Assembly (NCBI GenBank): GCA_025060325.1
Contig: JANXBW010000032.1
Coordinates: 1-46,548 of the forward strand
Reading direction: 5' to 3'
Length of the DNA: 46,548 nt
DNA from: Thermoguttaceae bacterium
GTDB lineage: Bacteria; Planctomycetota; Planctomycetia; Pirellulales; Thermoguttaceae
In this document: positions 15,875 through 22,232 of the stretch, piece by piece
Position numbering within the stretch: position 1 is the first letter of the stretch
How the letters are laid out: each line of letters begins with the position of its first letter
Notes under the pieces: generated by a model
The model's input: only the letters and a program-made list of their open reading frames with translations
Told to the model about the DNA's origin: nothing
The model's database searches: none
Program-made: the position numbers and the translations under genes

Positions 15875-16753
15875 TCATTTGTCCGCGCAGGCGTGCTGAA
15901 ACATTTCTGCCGCATGATAACTGGAGCGAACAAATGGTCCGGAGGCCACTTCGCGAAACCCCAGGCGGCGGGCTAGCTCGCCAAGCCACTCAAATTCCTC
16001 GGGCGGGACATATCGGGCCACTGGCATCTGTGCCGGCGAAGGTCGAAGGTATTGCCCAATCGTGACCATCTGACAGCCTGCGTCGGCTAGCTCGGCCAAG
16101 GACTCAAGCACTTCCTCTACCGTTTCGCCCAAGCCGAGCATAAGGCCAGTCTTCCTGCCCATCTCAGGCGCAAGTTCGCGGATGCGTCGGAAGATCGTCA
16201 GCGTCCATCGATAATTAGCTTGAGGACCGCGAACACTTCGATATAGCCGTGGAACTGTCTCCGTGTTGTAGTTGTACACATCGGGGCGAGCTTCAATCAG
16301 GCTGTCCAAGGCAGCGAGATTGCCGCCCAAGTCGGAAGGCAGAATCTCAATCGTGACATCCCCGCGACGGCGAATTTCTTCAATAGTGCGAATGAATTGC
16401 GAGGCGCCGCCGTCGGGGAGATCATCTCGGGTGACACAGGTCAGGACCACGTGCCGGAGTCCCAGCCGATAAACTGCTTCTGCCACACGGCGTGGCTCGT
16501 CGGGGTCAGGGGGTAGAGGTTTTCCCTTTCGCACACTACAGAAACGGCAACCCCTCGTGCAAATATCGCCGAGAATAAGGAACGTGGCGGTGCGATGGGC
16601 GTAACACTCTGGCCGGTTGGGGCAACGGGCCTCCTCGCATACGGTATGGAGCTTAAGTTCCTGAAGCACCTGGGCAGTAAAATGGTTAACGTCGCCCTTG
16701 GGGAGTTTTCGCTTCAGCCAGCGGGGAAGCCGAGACGCCTCCGCGGGCACCAT
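15875..16753 (-). CDS. lipA: Lipoyl synthase
   Basis: This radical SAM enzyme inserts two sulfur atoms into protein-bound octanoyl groups to make lipoyl cofactors of 2-oxoacid dehydrogenases and the glycine cleavage system. Both iron-sulfur clusters are visible: the auxiliary-cluster cysteines in CEEARCPNRPEC (residues 39, 44, 50) and the radical SAM triad CTRGCRFC (65, 69, 72). The C-terminal RSSYHA serine ligand of the auxiliary cluster is also present. The ATG at 16751-16753 gives a 292-residue protein starting MVPAEASRLPRWLKRKLP, which matches the usual LipA start. An in-frame ATG at 16900 would add 49 residues that do not look like LipA. It is transcribed toward mfd (42 bp gap) and divergently from smpB. 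Confidence 0.95.
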   Translation of the reverse strand: MVPAEASRLPRWLKRKLPKGDVNHFTAQVLQELKLHTVCEEARCPNRPECYAHRTATFLILGDICTRGCRFCSVRKGKPLPPDPDEPRRVAEAVYRLGLRHVVLTCVTRDDLPDGGASQFIRTIEEIRRRGDVTIEILPSDLGGNLAALDSLIEARPDVYNYNTETVPRLYRSVRGPQANYRWTLTIFRRIRELAPEMGRKTGLMLGLGETVEEVLESLAELADAGCQMVTIGQYLRPSPAQMPVARYVPPEEFEWLGELARRLGFREVASGPFVRSSYHAAEMFQHACADK

Positions 16754-17197
16754 GCCCCTGCCACACCCCGTCAGGGGCAACTCCTGCTCGCTAGGGCGAA
16801 TGTCGTTATTGGGAATTCGGTCGAGATTAATTTCCACGCGTTTATCCCCGTCTTGGTACCGTGCCGGTCCGGCGTCCCTTTGGCCGCCAAAGGGTATCAT
16901 ACACAGCCGACCGGGCTGCAGATTCTGGCCAAGATTTTGTCGCCAACCTGAGCCAGGAGAAATGGACGTTCAGCTCGGACGCCGCGAGCGGTTCGACTTA
17001 AATGGCTATTTAGTGGCGGCTCCAACAACGGCAAGTTCTGCAAGGTTTTGCGGAGAATTCTACTAGCGGAAACTCCCGCGAGCGGGAGAGCTTTCGACGG
17101 ACCAAAACAGCCGGGTCGGCAGTGGCCGAGCGTTGGCCTTTTGATGCGGGGCTCGGGAAGCGGCGTGAGGTGTGCCCAATAAAGGCGGACAGATGCC
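16754..17197. other. Divergent lipA-smpB intergenic region
   Basis: This spacer must hold promoters for both genes, though I cannot place them. It contains a compact hairpin, CTCCCGC/GCGGGAG at 17073-17088 with a tight loop, and flanking GAAA/TTTC that could lengthen the stem. The hairpin lies about 110 bp before smpB and its role is unknown. Confidence 0.4.
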
Positions 17198-17686
17198 ATG
17201 GCCAAAGAGAAGTCTGGTCAATCCGGGAGGACGCAGCCGGATATCAAATTGGTGGCGGAGAATCGCAAAGCCCGCTCCAAGTTTGAGGTCTTGGATACGC
17301 TCGAGTGCGGTTTGGTCCTGCAAGGGAGCGAGGTGAAGAGCCTCCGGCAAGGGGGTGTTTCGCTCGATGAGGCATATGCCCGCTACCGTGACGGGGAGAT
17401 GTGGCTTGTGGGGTGCTATATTCCGGAATATCCGCAAGCCAATCAATTTAATCATGATCCGACGCGGCCTCGGAAGCTGCTGATGCACAAGCGCGAGATT
17501 CGTCGGTTTGCTGGCCGTGCTCAAGAAAAAGGATTAACTTTGGTCCCGCTTAAAATCTACTTTAGGAGTGGAAAAGCTAAGGTTCTGATCGGGTTATGCC
17601 GGGGATTAAAGCTCCACGATAAGCGCGAAAAAATCCGGGAGCGGGAAGCCCAGCGGGCCATCCAGCGGGCATTGCGGCGAAGATAG
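17198..17686 (+). CDS. smpB: SsrA-binding protein SmpB
   Basis: SmpB binds tmRNA and delivers it to stalled ribosomes for trans-translation. The 162-residue protein has the oligonucleotide-binding barrel signatures ENRKARSKFEVLDTLECGLVLQGSEVKSLRQG near the N terminus. The motif YIPEYPQANQFNHDPTRPRKLL-type core and LVPLKIYFRSGKAKVLIGLCRGLKLHDKR follow. The basic C-terminal tail (REREAQRAIQRALRRR) is the part that enters the ribosomal A site. AAAGGCGGA sits about 10 bases upstream of the ATG. A strong hairpin follows five bases after the stop. I looked for the tmRNA gene in the 1 kb downstream and did not find one. Confidence 0.97.
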   Translation: MAKEKSGQSGRTQPDIKLVAENRKARSKFEVLDTLECGLVLQGSEVKSLRQGGVSLDEAYARYRDGEMWLVGCYIPEYPQANQFNHDPTRPRKLLMHKREIRRFAGRAQEKGLTLVPLKIYFRSGKAKVLIGLCRGLKLHDKREKIREREAQRAIQRALRRR

Positions 17687-17730: not shown

Positions 17731-18702
17731 CGTTACGGGCCAGGTCGTGCCTTCGGAACGCTTTTTACGGGCATGTTCAAAACAGGATGCTGGCCGGAGG
17801 TCTTTGGGGCAAGTACTGGGACCTGGCTCCTGAGCGTGAAAGCGGGGTCCGGGTAGCCGGGGGACCACGTCGGGCACCGCGGGTGACAAGGTTGTTTGGA
17901 TTATTGGCGAGAGTGCTGGCCAGTAAGCGGTCCATTCGATGAATGTCGTTTTTTCGTGATCGCCGGGGGGCGAATGGCGGGCAAAGTTCATTTGCGTTTG
18001 TCCCTGATGGAACTCTTTATTGGCAAGAAACTACTTTCTTCGTGTATCGTCCGAACTTCTCTATGCTCGGTTCCTGCTGCTGCCGGCAAAGGGGGACGAG
18101 TTCTTAGGAGGGCCCGCCGCTTTTAAGCTGCTCGCCCGGTCCGACCAACTTGGGTAATGTCTACTTCCGGCAGTCCAGACGAACTTCCTCGCGGCTCTTC
18201 AACCCAAACGATTGGGTAACCGCACTTGCTACCCATTGGGCGACGGCTCTTTTAAATCCCATGGCCGGAGCAGTTGTTTGGAGGCACGCCCCTAGTCCAG
18301 CCCCCGGTCCCACACCTCGAATAACAGCACGGCTTCAAACCGCGAAAGCGGGATCATCTTAGCTTCCCTGATCGGCACTTCTGGATCAGCCCCCATTCCA
18401 AACAAGGCTTGGCAGGTGGAAGTCGGCCTCCTTCCGTAGGTGGGGAAGGACGCTTTGGATTATCGGGAATCTCCCGTCCCGGAACCTGGGAATCAATCGG
18501 GTCGTAGAATTGGGTGATGCTTGTGAGCACCTTGGCAAGAAAGTTGCTCACGTTGGGGTTGAATTCCCCTCGGTGTGGGAGCTGGAAGCCCCGACCCCGT
18601 CGGCATTGCAAAGTGCGAAAATAGGTTGGGGGCCGTTTCGGCTTAGCTCCCGCTATGCTTCCCTGACGATCGCCAACTTAATCCAACTTCGAAGGTGCAG
18701 CG
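17731..18702. other. Intergenic region, no gene seen
   Basis: This is nearly 1 kb between smpB and the ABC ATPase gene. No tmRNA ends, tRNA-like acceptor arm or tag-peptide frame could be found. Short frames on both strands lack start signals. The promoter of the ABC cassette presumably lies toward its right end. Confidence 0.4.
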
Positions 18703-19392
18703 ATGCTTCTTGTCCTGGAAGAAGTGCGGAAGTCATTTCCCCAACCAGATGGCGGACGATTAGAGATTCTCGATATCCCTTATTTCGGTTTGGACGCCGG
18801 CGAACAAGTCGTCCTTGTCGGAAAGAGTGGTAGTGGTAAGACGACTCTCCTCCACATTATTGCCGGGATTAGCCGCCCGGACTCTGGCTCGGTGCGTATA
18901 GATGGGTGGAATATCACGCTCTTGAGCGAGGCCGACTGTGATCGGTTCCGGGCAAAGCGGATTGGTTATGTGTTCCAGACGTTTAATCTGCTGCCCGGAT
19001 TTACCGCTCTGGAGAATGTGCTTTTGAGCATGTACTTTGCCGACGGGAGGGCTGACCGCCTTCGGGCAAAGCAGCTGCTTGAACGCGTCGGGCTAGGCCA
19101 TCGGCTGGGACATAAGCCGCCGATGCTGTCCGTAGGTGAGCAACAGCGGGTCGCCTTAGCACGCGCGTTGGCCAATCGTCCACAGCTGATCTTGGCCGAC
19201 GAACCGACGGCCAATGTGGACGTAGGAAATCAACAAATTATCATCAATCTGCTTCGCGAAACCTGCCGAGAGGAAGGAGCAGCGCTGCTTCTTGTGACGC
19301 ATAGCCCGGAGGTAGCTCGGCAGTTTCCGCGGATTGAGCGGTTGGAAGAAATCAACATGGTCGGCAAGCGCGAGGTTGAGCAACAAGTATGA
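18703..19392 (+). CDS. ABC transporter ATP-binding protein (LolD/MacB-like)
   Basis: This 229-residue cytoplasmic ATPase powers the permease encoded next to it. Motifs are intact: Walker A GKSGSGKTT (residues 40-48 including the first Gly), Q-loop Gln92 in YVFQTFNLLPGFTALENV, signature LSVGEQQR (142-149), Walker B LILADEP (162-168) and switch His200 in LLVTHS. The sequence belongs to the MacB/LolD/FtsE branch, which pairs with FtsX-type permeases rather than classic importer permeases. AAGGTG lies upstream of the ATG. Its stop overlaps the permease start in ATGA, implying translational coupling. Substrate is not evident from the ATPase itself; the neighbours suggest a metal (see findings). 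Confidence 0.93.
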   Translation: MLLVLEEVRKSFPQPDGGRLEILDIPYFGLDAGEQVVLVGKSGSGKTTLLHIIAGISRPDSGSVRIDGWNITLLSEADCDRFRAKRIGYVFQTFNLLPGFTALENVLLSMYFADGRADRLRAKQLLERVGLGHRLGHKPPMLSVGEQQRVALARALANRPQLILADEPTANVDVGNQQIIINLLRETCREEGAALLLVTHSPEVARQFPRIERLEEINMVGKREVEQQV

Positions 19393-20807
19393 ACCTTTGG
19401 AAAATTGCTTGGCGGAGCATGCAGCAAAGGGCGGTCGCTTCTTGGCTGACCGCCATTTCCGTGGGCTTGGGGGTGGCGCTGATCGTTGCGGTTCTTGTTA
19501 TTCATCAGGTGGTTGATCGCTCGTTTAGGCGGGGCGCACAAGGTTACGATCTCATCGTAGGCGCCAAAGGCAGCGCTTTGCAGCTTGTACTGGACACTGT
19601 TTTCTACCTTGGTCAGCCAGTGGACCTTATTCCATATAGCTACTACCGGGAATTTACCGAGGGCCGGTTTGTTCCCGCGGTGCGGGTAGCTATTCCCATT
19701 TGTACAGGCCACAGTTACAAGGGGTTTCGCTGCGTGGCGACCATCCCGGATATGTTCGAACGGCTGACTTACCTAGACAACCGGGAATTTAAATTTCGCG
19801 AGGGTCGCAATTTTTACGCGGAGAATTACTTCGAAGCCGTGGCGGGTTACACGGCGGCGCGGAAACTTAAGCTTCAGGTCGGCCAAGAGATTCGGCCCTC
19901 GGGTTATGGCGAAGTGGGCAAGAGTCAACACGAAGACGAGGCTTTTGTCATCGTTGGGATCTTGGAGCCGACGGGTACCCCGGTTGACCGGGCCATTTTC
20001 CTCAACCTGGAGGGGTTTTTCCGCTGCAAGGCTCATCAAATGGGGCCAAGCTCGGAGGAGCGGATGCTGCGGGAGTCGGAATTCCGGGTAGTGGCCACGT
20101 CGGCAGAATCGCCGGAGGGTCATTCGAGCGTTTTAGCCGGTAATGGCGCAACCGGCGGAAGCGCCAGCGAGGGTACCCCGAGCCAAGAATCGCACGAGGC
20201 TCCACGTCACGAGGGGGAGGATCATGCCCACGAGCATGCGGAGGACGAGCGCCGTTTAAGCGCGATTTTGGTTGTTTCCGAATTGGAGAGTAATCCACAA
20301 TCTGCGATGGCCCTCCCGCGGATCATCAACGAAGAGCCGTATGCCCAAGCAATTGCTCCGGCCCAGGTGGTGGCCGAGCTTTTCGACGGTATTGTGGGCA
20401 ATGTGCAGAAGGTGCTCCTCATCCTGGCCGTGCTGGTGGTAATCGTCGCTGGCATTGGCATTACCGTAAGCATCTACAACTCGATGAGCGAGCGGCGCCA
20501 CGAGATTGCCATCATGCGGGCTTTAGGGGCAAGCCGGGGCACGGTGATGGCGGTCATCCTCCTTGAGTCGATCCTCTTGTCGCTTGGTGGCGGACTCCTT
20601 GGAGTGGTCATGGGTCATACGCTGGTGGGAGCACTTAGCCCGGCCATTGCGGAATACACAGGCGTTATCGTTCATCCGCTTGATTTTCAGCTTGCGGAAC
20701 TAATACTCATTCCCGGTCTGATTGCCCTGGCGACAGCCGTGGGCTATCTCCCGGCACTTATGGCCTATCGCACCGATGTGGCCAAATGCCTGATCGCAGC
20801 GCCTTAA
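19389..20807 (+). CDS. FtsX/MacB-type ABC permease with His-rich extracytoplasmic loop
   Basis: This 472-residue membrane subunit is the partner of the preceding ATPase. One membrane helix is near the N terminus (about residues 18-42). A large extracytoplasmic MacB-like domain (about 45-330) follows. Three C-terminal helices (about 340-365, 390-415 and 435-460) form the FtsX domain, including SIYNSMSERRHEIAIMRALGASRGTV. The extracytoplasmic domain carries a low-complexity insertion (about 238-287) whose end is rich in His, Glu and Asp, with His at 269, 274, 279, 281 and 283 (DHAHEHAEDE). Such stretches often bind zinc or other metals. The ATG overlaps the ATPase stop. It is followed after 285 bp by the DUF3299-like gene. 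Confidence 0.9.
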   Translation: MNLWKIAWRSMQQRAVASWLTAISVGLGVALIVAVLVIHQVVDRSFRRGAQGYDLIVGAKGSALQLVLDTVFYLGQPVDLIPYSYYREFTEGRFVPAVRVAIPICTGHSYKGFRCVATIPDMFERLTYLDNREFKFREGRNFYAENYFEAVAGYTAARKLKLQVGQEIRPSGYGEVGKSQHEDEAFVIVGILEPTGTPVDRAIFLNLEGFFRCKAHQMGPSSEERMLRESEFRVVATSAESPEGHSSVLAGNGATGGSASEGTPSQESHEAPRHEGEDHAHEHAEDERRLSAILVVSELESNPQSAMALPRIINEEPYAQAIAPAQVVAELFDGIVGNVQKVLLILAVLVVIVAGIGITVSIYNSMSERRHEIAIMRALGASRGTVMAVILLESILLSLGGGLLGVVMGHTLVGALSPAIAEYTGVIVHPLDFQLAELILIPGLIALATAVGYLPALMAYRTDVAKCLIAAP

Positions 20808-21092
20808 AGCCGGCCGAGCTACGGCCAGTGTGAAAGTTGCCCGCGACAGAATGGTTCCTGTTGCGGCGAGGCAGATCGAAACAAGGATTCGTGTACAAGC
20901 ACGGACCGAACTTTGTGAGTAATTCCGTGGGTGTCTTTGGATACGTGGCTCATTCCAACCGCCACGTGGTGGTCGTCTCAGCTAACCTCGTGCCGGCAGC
21001 TGTTGATGGTTGGAGGAGTCCGGGGCAGAAGTTGCTAGCGCATTGCCAGCTTTGCCACCGTCGGCCGGCAGGCTTCCTGAGGAGCTGATGGG

Positions 21093-21800
21093 ATGTCCAA
21101 CACGGTTTTGCAGCAAACATTTCGGCCAATTTTTAAAGAGCGGGTCCGCTATCAATTTGAGCGAGGGGGTGGGCCACGTTACCGGAGTGTGAGCACCCTG
21201 GCTGTGCTTAGCTTGGTCATTGCCCCGTTTTCGATCCTCACCGCTTTCAGTTGGCTTATGCACTTTATCCCGATGGTGGCGCTGGCTCTTGGTCTTGGGG
21301 CAAAATATCGGATTAGCCGGCGGCCTGACCTCCTCGTGGGCACTAAGATTGCAACGCTGGGCATTGTGTTGACATTAGTACTCTGGGGGGTCGGCACAGC
21401 CGGGCTTATTTATTTGGAGATGAAAGAGGTCCCTCATGGTTACACTGCTATTTCGTTTGAGATGTTGGCTCCCCCTAATCCCGGGGCGGAAAATCCCGTG
21501 CCGCCGGATATCGAGAAATTAGATGGGCAAAAGGTGTACATCAAAGGACATATGTATCCCGGCCGACAAAGTATCAACATCAAGAATTTCCTGCTCGTGC
21601 CGACGCTGGCCCACTGCAAGTTCTGCGCTTCTCAGATTCCACTTCATGAGATTGTCGAGGTGGAACTTGTCGCCGACTTGACGACTGACTACACAAGCGC
21701 GCCTACCGGAGTAGGCGGCCGGCTAAGGGTTGACAAGGACGTAGCTAAGGGCAAGAAATTTGGCCAGCTCTATAAGATCGAAGCAGATTACATCCGATAG
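21093..21800 (+). CDS. Membrane protein with DUF4190-like and DUF3299-like regions
   Basis: This 235-residue protein has two or three hydrophobic segments (about residues 35-70 and 85-108) resembling DUF4190. An extracytoplasmic domain (about 115-235) follows, resembling DUF3299: DGQKVYIKGHMYPG, then NFLLVP and a CKFC pair (Cys175, Cys178). The domain is known from gene clusters with FtsX-type ABC transporters, and I recall it in the zinc-regulated zrg system of Vibrio. The CxxC could bind metal or be redox active. AGGAG at 21080-21084 fits the ATG at 21093; an ATG at 21088 is out of frame. Location after the ABC pair suggests a shared role. The family assignment is by eye and moderately sure. 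Confidence 0.75.
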   Translation: MSNTVLQQTFRPIFKERVRYQFERGGGPRYRSVSTLAVLSLVIAPFSILTAFSWLMHFIPMVALALGLGAKYRISRRPDLLVGTKIATLGIVLTLVLWGVGTAGLIYLEMKEVPHGYTAISFEMLAPPNPGAENPVPPDIEKLDGQKVYIKGHMYPGRQSINIKNFLLVPTLAHCKFCASQIPLHEIVEVELVADLTTDYTSAPTGVGGRLRVDKDVAKGKKFGQLYKIEADYIR

Positions 21801-22232
21801 AAGCCCGAAAGCCGTATGCCTCTCGTGGCATTTCGATCTCGGACTTGTCCGCGGTCTTCCTCGCGGGAAAGGGCCCTTCGAGAATCCGGGCGAATGACAG
21901 GTAAGCGCAAGGGAGCGACCAACTGACAGTCGCTGATGTAGTCGGCATGGTTCTCGGATCTCCCCGTTATTACGTGTCTATTCCGCGTCTACTCTTGTTG
22001 TCGGCCGGTCTTGAGAACTAGCCGGCTTGCCTTCGTTTTTGGTGCTTAACTAAGGCAAGATACTTTCCTTCGACGCGCACACTTTCCCCGCGGGGGTAAT
22101 CCCGGCAGAAGAAGGTCACAAGCACCTCACGCACCGGCGCTTACGGCGCGAAGCGAAGCTGGATTGGGCTACTTCATGCCCGCCAAAGGGTTCTTGCGAG
22201 GGCGGCGTCTTGGCCCTTCGGAACTGGGCCGC
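21801..22232. other. Intergenic region between convergent genes, nothing seen
   Basis: This spacer lies between the ends of two convergent genes. I see no gene, no repeat and no clear terminator hairpin with a T run. Confidence 0.4.

Follow-up and report, generated by a model that had tools for sequence, protein, structure and literature searches.

A candidate Zrg-type ABC cassette without ZrgA in a Thermoguttaceae bacterium

As described in the accessible parts of two papers, the zrg cluster of Vibrio encodes a His-rich zinc binder, ZrgA, and a MacB-like permease of four helices, ZrgB (PMC9817125, PMC9820375); zrgE encodes a DUF3299 protein (PMC9817125, Table 1). The His-rich loops of ZrgA are reported to capture metal in the periplasm, and import in Vibrio was inferred from growth under chelation. 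For the Pseudomonas homologs, the available text of PMC11481552 reports that a mutant impaired in zinc uptake grows more poorly on low zinc once PA4065 is lost, and the available part of PMC8561739 considers neither fold nor sequence a reasonable clue to the role of PA4066/ZrgE. Here we describe a related gene trio at positions 18703-21800 of a 46,548-nt window, which is the whole stretch of DNA analyzed (contig JANXBW010000032.1 of assembly GCA_025060325.1, a Thermoguttaceae bacterium of the Planctomycetota). An original prediction, made from the letters of the window, had pointed to a likeness to the V. cholerae zrg cluster and proposed a variant of that system. The link to zrg is right, zrgE being a DUF3299 gene, and it is consistent with the tree, the fold, and the order of the genes. 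What was found is a Zrg-type core without ZrgA, and in our view the trio is probably an ABC machine of the Zrg type that handles metal but has no such protein.

A recurring trio of ATPase, permease, and DUF3299 protein

All three genes lie on the + strand. The first (18703-19392, 229 aa) encodes an ABC ATPase, a nucleotide-binding subunit of the ZrgC/LolD/MacB type (ABC_tran, PF00005, E 1.5e-34); its nearest NCBIfam model is LolD at 194.7 bits, below the family cut-off of 307.75, and among the matches listed no NCBIfam cut-off was reached by any protein of the trio. The second (19389-20807, 472 aa) encodes a ZrgB-like permease of the FtsX/MacB type, with matches to FtsX (PF02687, 6.7e-18) and MacB_PCD (PF12704, 2.3e-12) and none to ABC-3 (PF00950) in Pfam. 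The predicted overlap of these two open reading frames (ORFs) was found as the shared ATGA at 19389-19392. The third gene (21093-21800, 235 aa) encodes a ZrgE-like, membrane-anchored DUF3299 protein.

A strong permease match (<1e-20) was found in 55 of 60 genomes, and in all 55 there is also a match to the third protein that covers at least part of its DUF3299 half. The other five genomes (G018, G019, G023, G031, and G036) gave weak, general permease matches, and the DUF3299 half was found in none of them. At the loci of relatives the ATPase gene is directly upstream of the permease gene in 49 of 57, and a DUF3299 gene lies within 6 kb in 41 of 57; five of the 16 loci without a nearby DUF3299 gene have less than 2.5 kb of contig downstream, and L118-L120, fetched for DUF3299, are kept outside the 57. 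Among 22 loci of other classes, picked by permease match alone, the ATPase is upstream in 18 and DUF3299 within 6 kb in 20. A class set of 18 loci (16 of family f21 and two of the window's order) has the ATPase upstream in all 18 and DUF3299 within 6 kb in four. In family f21, whose genomes are close kin and not independent, the DUF4190-DUF3299 match was present in 14/14 genomes searched, in 13 of them away from the permease. Across the phylum, 147 of 392 genomes have the permease at 1e-20; in the 20 permease-less genomes listed, of 245 without a match, DUF3299 was found in none, and two match the DUF4190 half only. The trio is real and its arrangement is not due to chance, because the members recur together in relatives; the neighborhood survey proposed with the original prediction did uncover a recurring trio. 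Judged from sequence comparison, the recurring core is ATPase, permease, and DUF3299 protein, and DUF3299 rather than ZrgA appears to accompany the permease as a rule, within the phylum, in Proteobacteria, and, according to a profile made here, in Deinococcota.

The ZrgA model (DUF2796, PF10986) found no match in any of the 60 genomes, the window's own included, although a very divergent ZrgA might escape it. The model was also silent in 14 control genomes, so likely carriers were tested as positive controls: three of six plasmid records (the three annotated DUF2796) and, in a second plasmid set, one of 11 (Aeromonas) scored well above cut-off. The predicted lack of a separate His-rich periplasmic partner is thus borne out as far as the ZrgA family is concerned.

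The permease has four transmembrane helices, the first two of which are separated by a large periplasmic domain. With its predicted model (pLDDT 87.2), Foldseek returned MacB (5gko, 1.2e-12) as the top match, alongside LolE, HrtB, and further ABC transporters of type VII, and VIA-align placed the Streptococcus permease 5xu1 first (Z 24.3); the lolCE model gave 43.1 bits against a cut-off of 362.45. In a phylogenetic tree, one branch (SH-aLRT 99) has on one side 78 permeases, of which 69 come from the phylum and nine from plasmid loci that are of zrg type or linked to alkaline phosphatase. On its other side are 15 further permeases of the FtsX type, namely 12 from planctomycetes and the E. coli proteins MacB, LolC, and LolE; the program warned that long branches meet among these outgroup rows. 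The 78 are those of 108 permease ORFs that have a clear start (alignment A2; A3 is A2 minus the nine plasmid rows), and L156, one of 13 stretches fetched as outgroup, yielded no permease and stands outside the trees. When the tree was repeated with added rows, the same branch split 86 from 12; here 17 of 21 plasmid permeases were used (L289, L290, L293, and L298 omitted), and the outgroup rows L155, L148, and L151 were omitted as long or short. In both trees the window permease falls apart from the E. coli MacB and LolC/LolE rows, subject to the same warning, and it appears to group with permeases of zrg-type operons (DUF2796 plus DUF3299). The Vibrio and Pseudomonas permeases themselves are outside the tree, and HrtBA is likewise not placed. 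Two aligned histidines of the permease are His181 (19929-19931), which flanks a short loop and is His in 53 of 78 permeases, and His216 (20034-20036), at the base of the His-rich insert and His in 61 of 78. An ORF at L179:4823-7708 in the phylum genome G313 encodes a permease of 961 aa, twice the usual length, and reflects a large insertion, a fusion, or a start placed too far upstream.

A search of plasmids with the window permease gave 114 records, all below 60% identity and the best from Phaeobacter. One Phaeobacter record (P. piscinae) carries a Fur-family regulator, DUF2796 (ZrgA), ATPase, permease, and DUF3299 in that order, and the loci of Pseudooceanicola and Sulfitobacter carry DUF2796, ATPase, permease, and two DUF3299 genes.

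The cysteine site and the His-rich insert

The third protein of the window alone falls just under the Pfam cut-offs, with 27.2 against 35 bits for DUF4190 and 20.2 against 22 bits for DUF3299. Its family is clearer: at E ≤0.01, DUF4190 is found in 41 and DUF3299 in 31 of 44 third-protein sequences, the window's included, and the family profile matches one sequence of the PDB, 4hsp, at 3.8e-6. The predicted model (pLDDT 89.7) has helices at residues 35-51, 54-76, and 84-110 and a C-terminal OB-like domain. Foldseek ranked 4hsp (Pseudomonas PA4066) first at 2.5e-6, as did VIA-align (Z 11.1, rmsd 2.7, 107 residues aligned), and the VIA-align rows that follow are general OB folds with Z ≤8.9. The three helices belong to a DUF4190-like membrane anchor (21180-21422, about residues 30-110), and the 4hsp-like fold to a predicted periplasmic, OB-like DUF3299 domain (21435-21797, about residues 115-235) that contains a CxxC motif (C175 and C178; 21615-21626). 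By profile and predicted fold the third protein is a ZrgE-type OB-fold DUF3299 protein with a DUF4190 membrane anchor, in agreement with the earlier description of a membrane protein with a DUF3299-like domain and a CxxC pair.

The equivalent of C175 is Cys in 44/44 aligned sequences (alignment A1: 43 of 44 references from relatives plus the window; the cut-off sequence L117, with CC at the site, was omitted). The CxxC form occurs in 26 of the 44, namely in all 26 sequences of the window's family; the 18 sequences from other families of the same order all have CC, nearly always as CCFGG. The first Cys of the window motif aligns with the Cys in the CIHVPPP stretch of 4hsp. At loci of other classes CCxG predominates at this site, several of these loci carry a pair of DUF3299 genes, and the DUF4190 anchor profile found no match in their DUF3299 proteins. 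One DUF3299 protein of another class (L177:6007-6732) matches DUF1980_C weakly (E 0.0076, under the cut-off), which hints at a possible distant kinship.

Another Cys-bearing protein was noticed in the order's other families, often encoded between permease and DUF3299. This ACPFC protein (cluster c3; e.g., L110:7205-8497 and relatives) is secreted, about 430-620 aa long, with a weak HEAT-like signal, and no Pfam family over cut-off was found in the three scanned. It is present in 23/23 genomes of the other families and in 0/37 of the window's family, which rules it out as a substitute for ZrgA in the window. The families with the CC site are the same as those with the ACPFC protein. That the two go together across families is only suggestive, because a single event on a single branch might suffice to account for both.

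The permease carries a His/Asp/Glu-rich periplasmic insert at 20094-20252 (about residues 236-288), of which residues 240-274 have a pLDDT below 50 and are predicted to be disordered. As the original prediction had said, this extracytoplasmic insertion is rich in His: residues 216-292 hold seven His in 77 positions, with a binomial p of 1.6e-4 against the His rate in the remaining protein. In 58 permeases, that of the window among them, His makes up a median fraction of 0.1085 of the insert and 0.0195 of the remaining protein, and 38 have at least four His in the insert, whose length and His content differ widely. By a measure that does not depend on length, at least eight His per 40 residues occur in 18 of 69 permeases, against three of 241 further long ORF models from these loci, some of which may not be real genes; outgroup permeases have one to three His per 40 residues.

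The insert had been proposed to take over the role of ZrgA, and here the evidence is divided. All four permeases with an adjoining ZrgA gene lack the His-rich loop (two to three His), whereas 10 of 17 plasmid permeases without an adjoining ZrgA have at least six His, the runs of Cereibacter and Roseomonas being in another loop. The permease of Alisedimentitalea lies inside the zrg clade (SH-aLRT 100), next to a DUF3299 protein of the CIHTPPPP type; it has a long His-rich insert at the same alignment site as the window's, and PF10986 was not found on its plasmid, the plasmid having been searched and the chromosome not. On the other side, Catenovulum, also of the zrg clade, has neither PF10986 on the plasmid nor a His-rich loop (four His), and this combination speaks against a strict rule of ZrgA or loop. 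The association of ZrgA presence with the loop gives a Fisher p of 0.09 with four ZrgA-bearing loci, the loci not being independent, and for this reason the contrast is only a lead. A His-rich permease loop standing in for ZrgA is therefore suggestive, correlative, and not significant: the correlation and the Alisedimentitalea case favor this part of the original prediction, and Catenovulum is a counter-case.

Gene context, zinc regulation, and possible functions

According to Pfam, the trio is flanked by genes for lipoyl synthase (LIAS_N/Radical_SAM), SmpB, a xylose-isomerase-like barrel (AP_endonuc_2), and a ThuA protein. Lipoyl synthase (15875-16900) and SmpB (17198-17686) are upstream of the trio and unrelated to the finding. 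No MacA-type adaptor gene was found among the flanking genes, the rest of the genome not having been searched for an adaptor, and the gap from permease to third gene contains an 83-aa ORF (20837-21088) without a Pfam match. A scan of 18100-22200 for promoters and terminators was uninformative (one promoter-like site vs 1.7 expected, six terminator-like sites vs 4.7 expected).

The window's genome has a znu region elsewhere (L137:5343-9097 on G000:C8), in which znuA, encoding a protein with a His-rich loop, znuC, and znuB are divergent from a Fur-family gene that we take for zur by its position. The intergenic region between znuA and the Fur-family gene contains the palindrome GTGATAATGGATTATCGTTATCAC, with a similar weaker site at the same place in G001, and the region is likely the head of the genome's Zur regulon. 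The 22-base core of this palindrome occurs once in the genome at ≤3 mismatches, and not at the trio. Upstream of the ATPase gene, its start set by profile, box scores at 87 loci including the window equal those of shuffled sequences (mean 12.67 vs 12.68 of 24; maximum 16 vs 16), and a related palindrome gave two hits in the window vs 7.3 expected. A Zur-type site upstream of 18703, which the original prediction had suggested looking for, was thus not found in the form of the genome's own znu-zur box; a differently built site may escape this search. Among 113 stretches, three of them the genome's own Fur loci, a Fur-family gene within 1.4 kb of the permease was found only at L124, which is of zrg type, and L077, and a Fur-family neighbor was rejected as a general feature of the cassette. 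At L077, one of two cassette copies in G045, the regulator gene (L077:6536-6952) comes directly after ATPase, permease, and DUF3299.

If the trio is a Zrg-type metal-handling machine, the disordered His-rich loop of the permease would act in the periplasm as the loops of ZrgA are reported to do, capturing a divalent metal that is most likely zinc. The metal would then pass to, or come from, the conserved His of the permease and the invariant Cys of DUF3299, while ATP hydrolysis would move the periplasmic domain of the permease between metal-accepting and metal-releasing states. We infer zinc as the substrate by analogy, from the zrg literature and the His-rich loop. In the end the metal could be imported, as has been proposed for Vibrio, handed to metalloproteins that are periplasmic or exported, or itself exported; import is possible, and periplasmic transfer and export are each somewhat doubtful. 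MacB-type proteins are not known to have a channel. They work by mechanotransmission, according to the available text of PMC11481552, and the two together make ATP-driven periplasmic transfer a serious option.

A wider reading, in our estimate unlikely, sees the ATPase, the ZrgB-type permease, and the Cys-bearing OB-fold DUF3299 protein as the core of a widespread, unrecognized class of ABC machines, to which the His-rich permease loop, ZrgA, the ACPFC protein, and alkaline phosphatase would be exchangeable accessories on the metal side. On this reading the machine would carry no metal through the membrane; ATP would instead, by mechanotransmission, drive the exchange of metal in the periplasm between the thiol site of DUF3299 and a His-rich catcher, for metalation or uptake.

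Several observations weigh against a Zrg-type metal machine in this genome, besides the Catenovulum case, the Fisher value, and the chance-level box scores given above. A separate znuACB stands beside a Zur-like gene, so that no second zinc importer is needed. The insert has fewer than four His in 20 of 58 permeases, and two have none; the closest relative, L061 of the same genus, has only four His in a 71-residue insert. Alignment position 172, on the other flank of the short loop, is His in 68 of 78 permeases but Gly in the window, the gap from permease to DUF3299 gene is 285 nt, and the trees carry the long-branch warning. In the accessible part of PMC11481552, deletion of PA4065 causes no further loss of zinc and a rise in cobalt, and the authors argue for export of a pyochelin-cobalt complex rather than zinc import.

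The last point leads to a rival explanation that we regard as improbable, in which the trio is a MacB-type exporter moving a metallophore, metal complex, or peptide outward from periplasm or membrane, as claimed for pyochelin-cobalt and PA4064/PA4065, with the His-rich loop and DUF3299 tuning it by metal. The MacB/LolE/HrtB-like fold of the permease, the argument of that paper for the Pseudomonas homolog, and an HlyD-like ORF upstream of the Alisedimentitalea locus would fit such an exporter, but the window trio is flanked by no adaptor gene, its usual companion is DUF3299, and in the tree, subject to the warning noted, the permease is set apart from E. coli MacB and LolC/E. Less probable still is an envelope machine not devoted to metals, for lipoprotein release or remodeling like LolCDE or FtsEX, whose acidic His-rich loop is a neutral low-complexity spacer. 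The widely varying length and His content of the loop would suit a spacer, the ATPase is nearest to LolD by profile, though below cut-off, and the permease fold resembles LolE. LolC/E are nevertheless across the branch with SH-aLRT 99, the loop is richer in His than other ORF models of the same loci (18/69 vs 3/241), and related cassettes adjoin DUF2796 or alkaline phosphatase genes. That an ordinary ATPase/permease pair stands by chance near an unrelated DUF4190-DUF3299 membrane protein is hardly credible: the 285-nt gap and the 14 of 18 class-set loci with no DUF3299 within 6 kb would agree with separate units, and the co-occurrence across genomes (55/55 vs 0/5; 14/14 vs 0/20) and the nearby DUF3299 genes at 41/57 relative and 20/22 other-class loci argue against them.

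Under the metal-handling reading that we prefer, DUF3299 as the companion of the permease and its Cys, invariant in 44/44, offer a testable partner and site. The apparent exchange of ZrgA for a His-rich loop, as in Alisedimentitalea inside the zrg clade, would be a direct way to ask what ZrgA does. Whether a MacB-type machine serves zinc uptake or export is disputed in the accessible parts of the papers cited above, and a ZrgA-free version could test it.

Comparison with known systems

In the literature found, most subscription journals being outside reach, neither a planctomycete cassette of this kind nor a His-rich loop replacing ZrgA is described. The ZepA zinc system (PMC10957091), considered for its naming of Planctomycetota, was set aside, its accessible text being without "FtsX," "MacB," or "ABC transporter."

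Cassettes linked to alkaline phosphatase share with the trio the ATPase, a related permease, often with a His-rich loop, and a DUF3299-like protein with CxxC. They were found on plasmids of Alphaproteobacteria and Deinococcota (L127, L128, L129, L132, L291, L292, L294-L297, and L299) as phosphatase, DUF3299-like CPFC ORF annotated hypothetical, ATPase, and permease, and the neighboring phosphatase is PF00245 in 4/4 scanned. They differ from the trio in the phosphatase link, in the DUF3299-like gene being upstream of the ATPase, and in having no DUF4190 match (four profiled). With the DUF3299 profile made here, the ORF that precedes the ATPase in Deinococcus, Paracoccus, Rhizobium, and Ensifer reaches 27-42 bits, and its Cys site reads CPFC; its kinship with DUF3299 rests on this profile because the Pfam DUF3299 model found no match in the ORFs of Deinococcus, Rhizobium, and Ensifer (three scanned). 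We know of no published description of these cassettes, no search by name having been made. Their composition suggests metal loading of the phosphatase, and in some of them the metal may be other than zinc. Genes for the copper chaperone PCu(A)C lie by two of the cassettes (L132:70-567 and L292:4647-5123).

With ZrgABCDE of Vibrio the trio has in common the ATPase (ZrgC), the MacB-like permease of four helices (ZrgB), DUF3299 (ZrgE), and a His-rich segment in the system. In the window's genome no ZrgA (DUF2796) was found and the His-rich segment is in the permease instead, the DUF3299 protein is apparently membrane-anchored through DUF4190 and has CxxC where zrg-type plasmid homologs have CxHxP, and no box like that of znu-zur was found at the trio; ZrgD was not looked for. 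PA4063-PA4066 of Pseudomonas aeruginosa likewise includes ATPase, permease, and DUF3299, and the third protein is structurally closest to PA4066 (4hsp). A counterpart of PA4063, a ZrgA homolog according to the available text of PMC9820375, was not found here; PA4066 is described as periplasmic, and, as far as the accessible part of PMC11481552 goes, the Pseudomonas genes are Zur-regulated.

The permease fold is shared with MacB, LolCDE, and HrtBA, which are type VII ABC transporters, but in the tree the window permease is separate from MacB and LolC/E, and it has no adjoining adaptor gene. The genome also encodes ZnuABC, a zinc ABC system whose ZnuA is itself His-rich (L137); its permease is of the ABC-3 family, whereas that of the trio combines FtsX and MacB_PCD.

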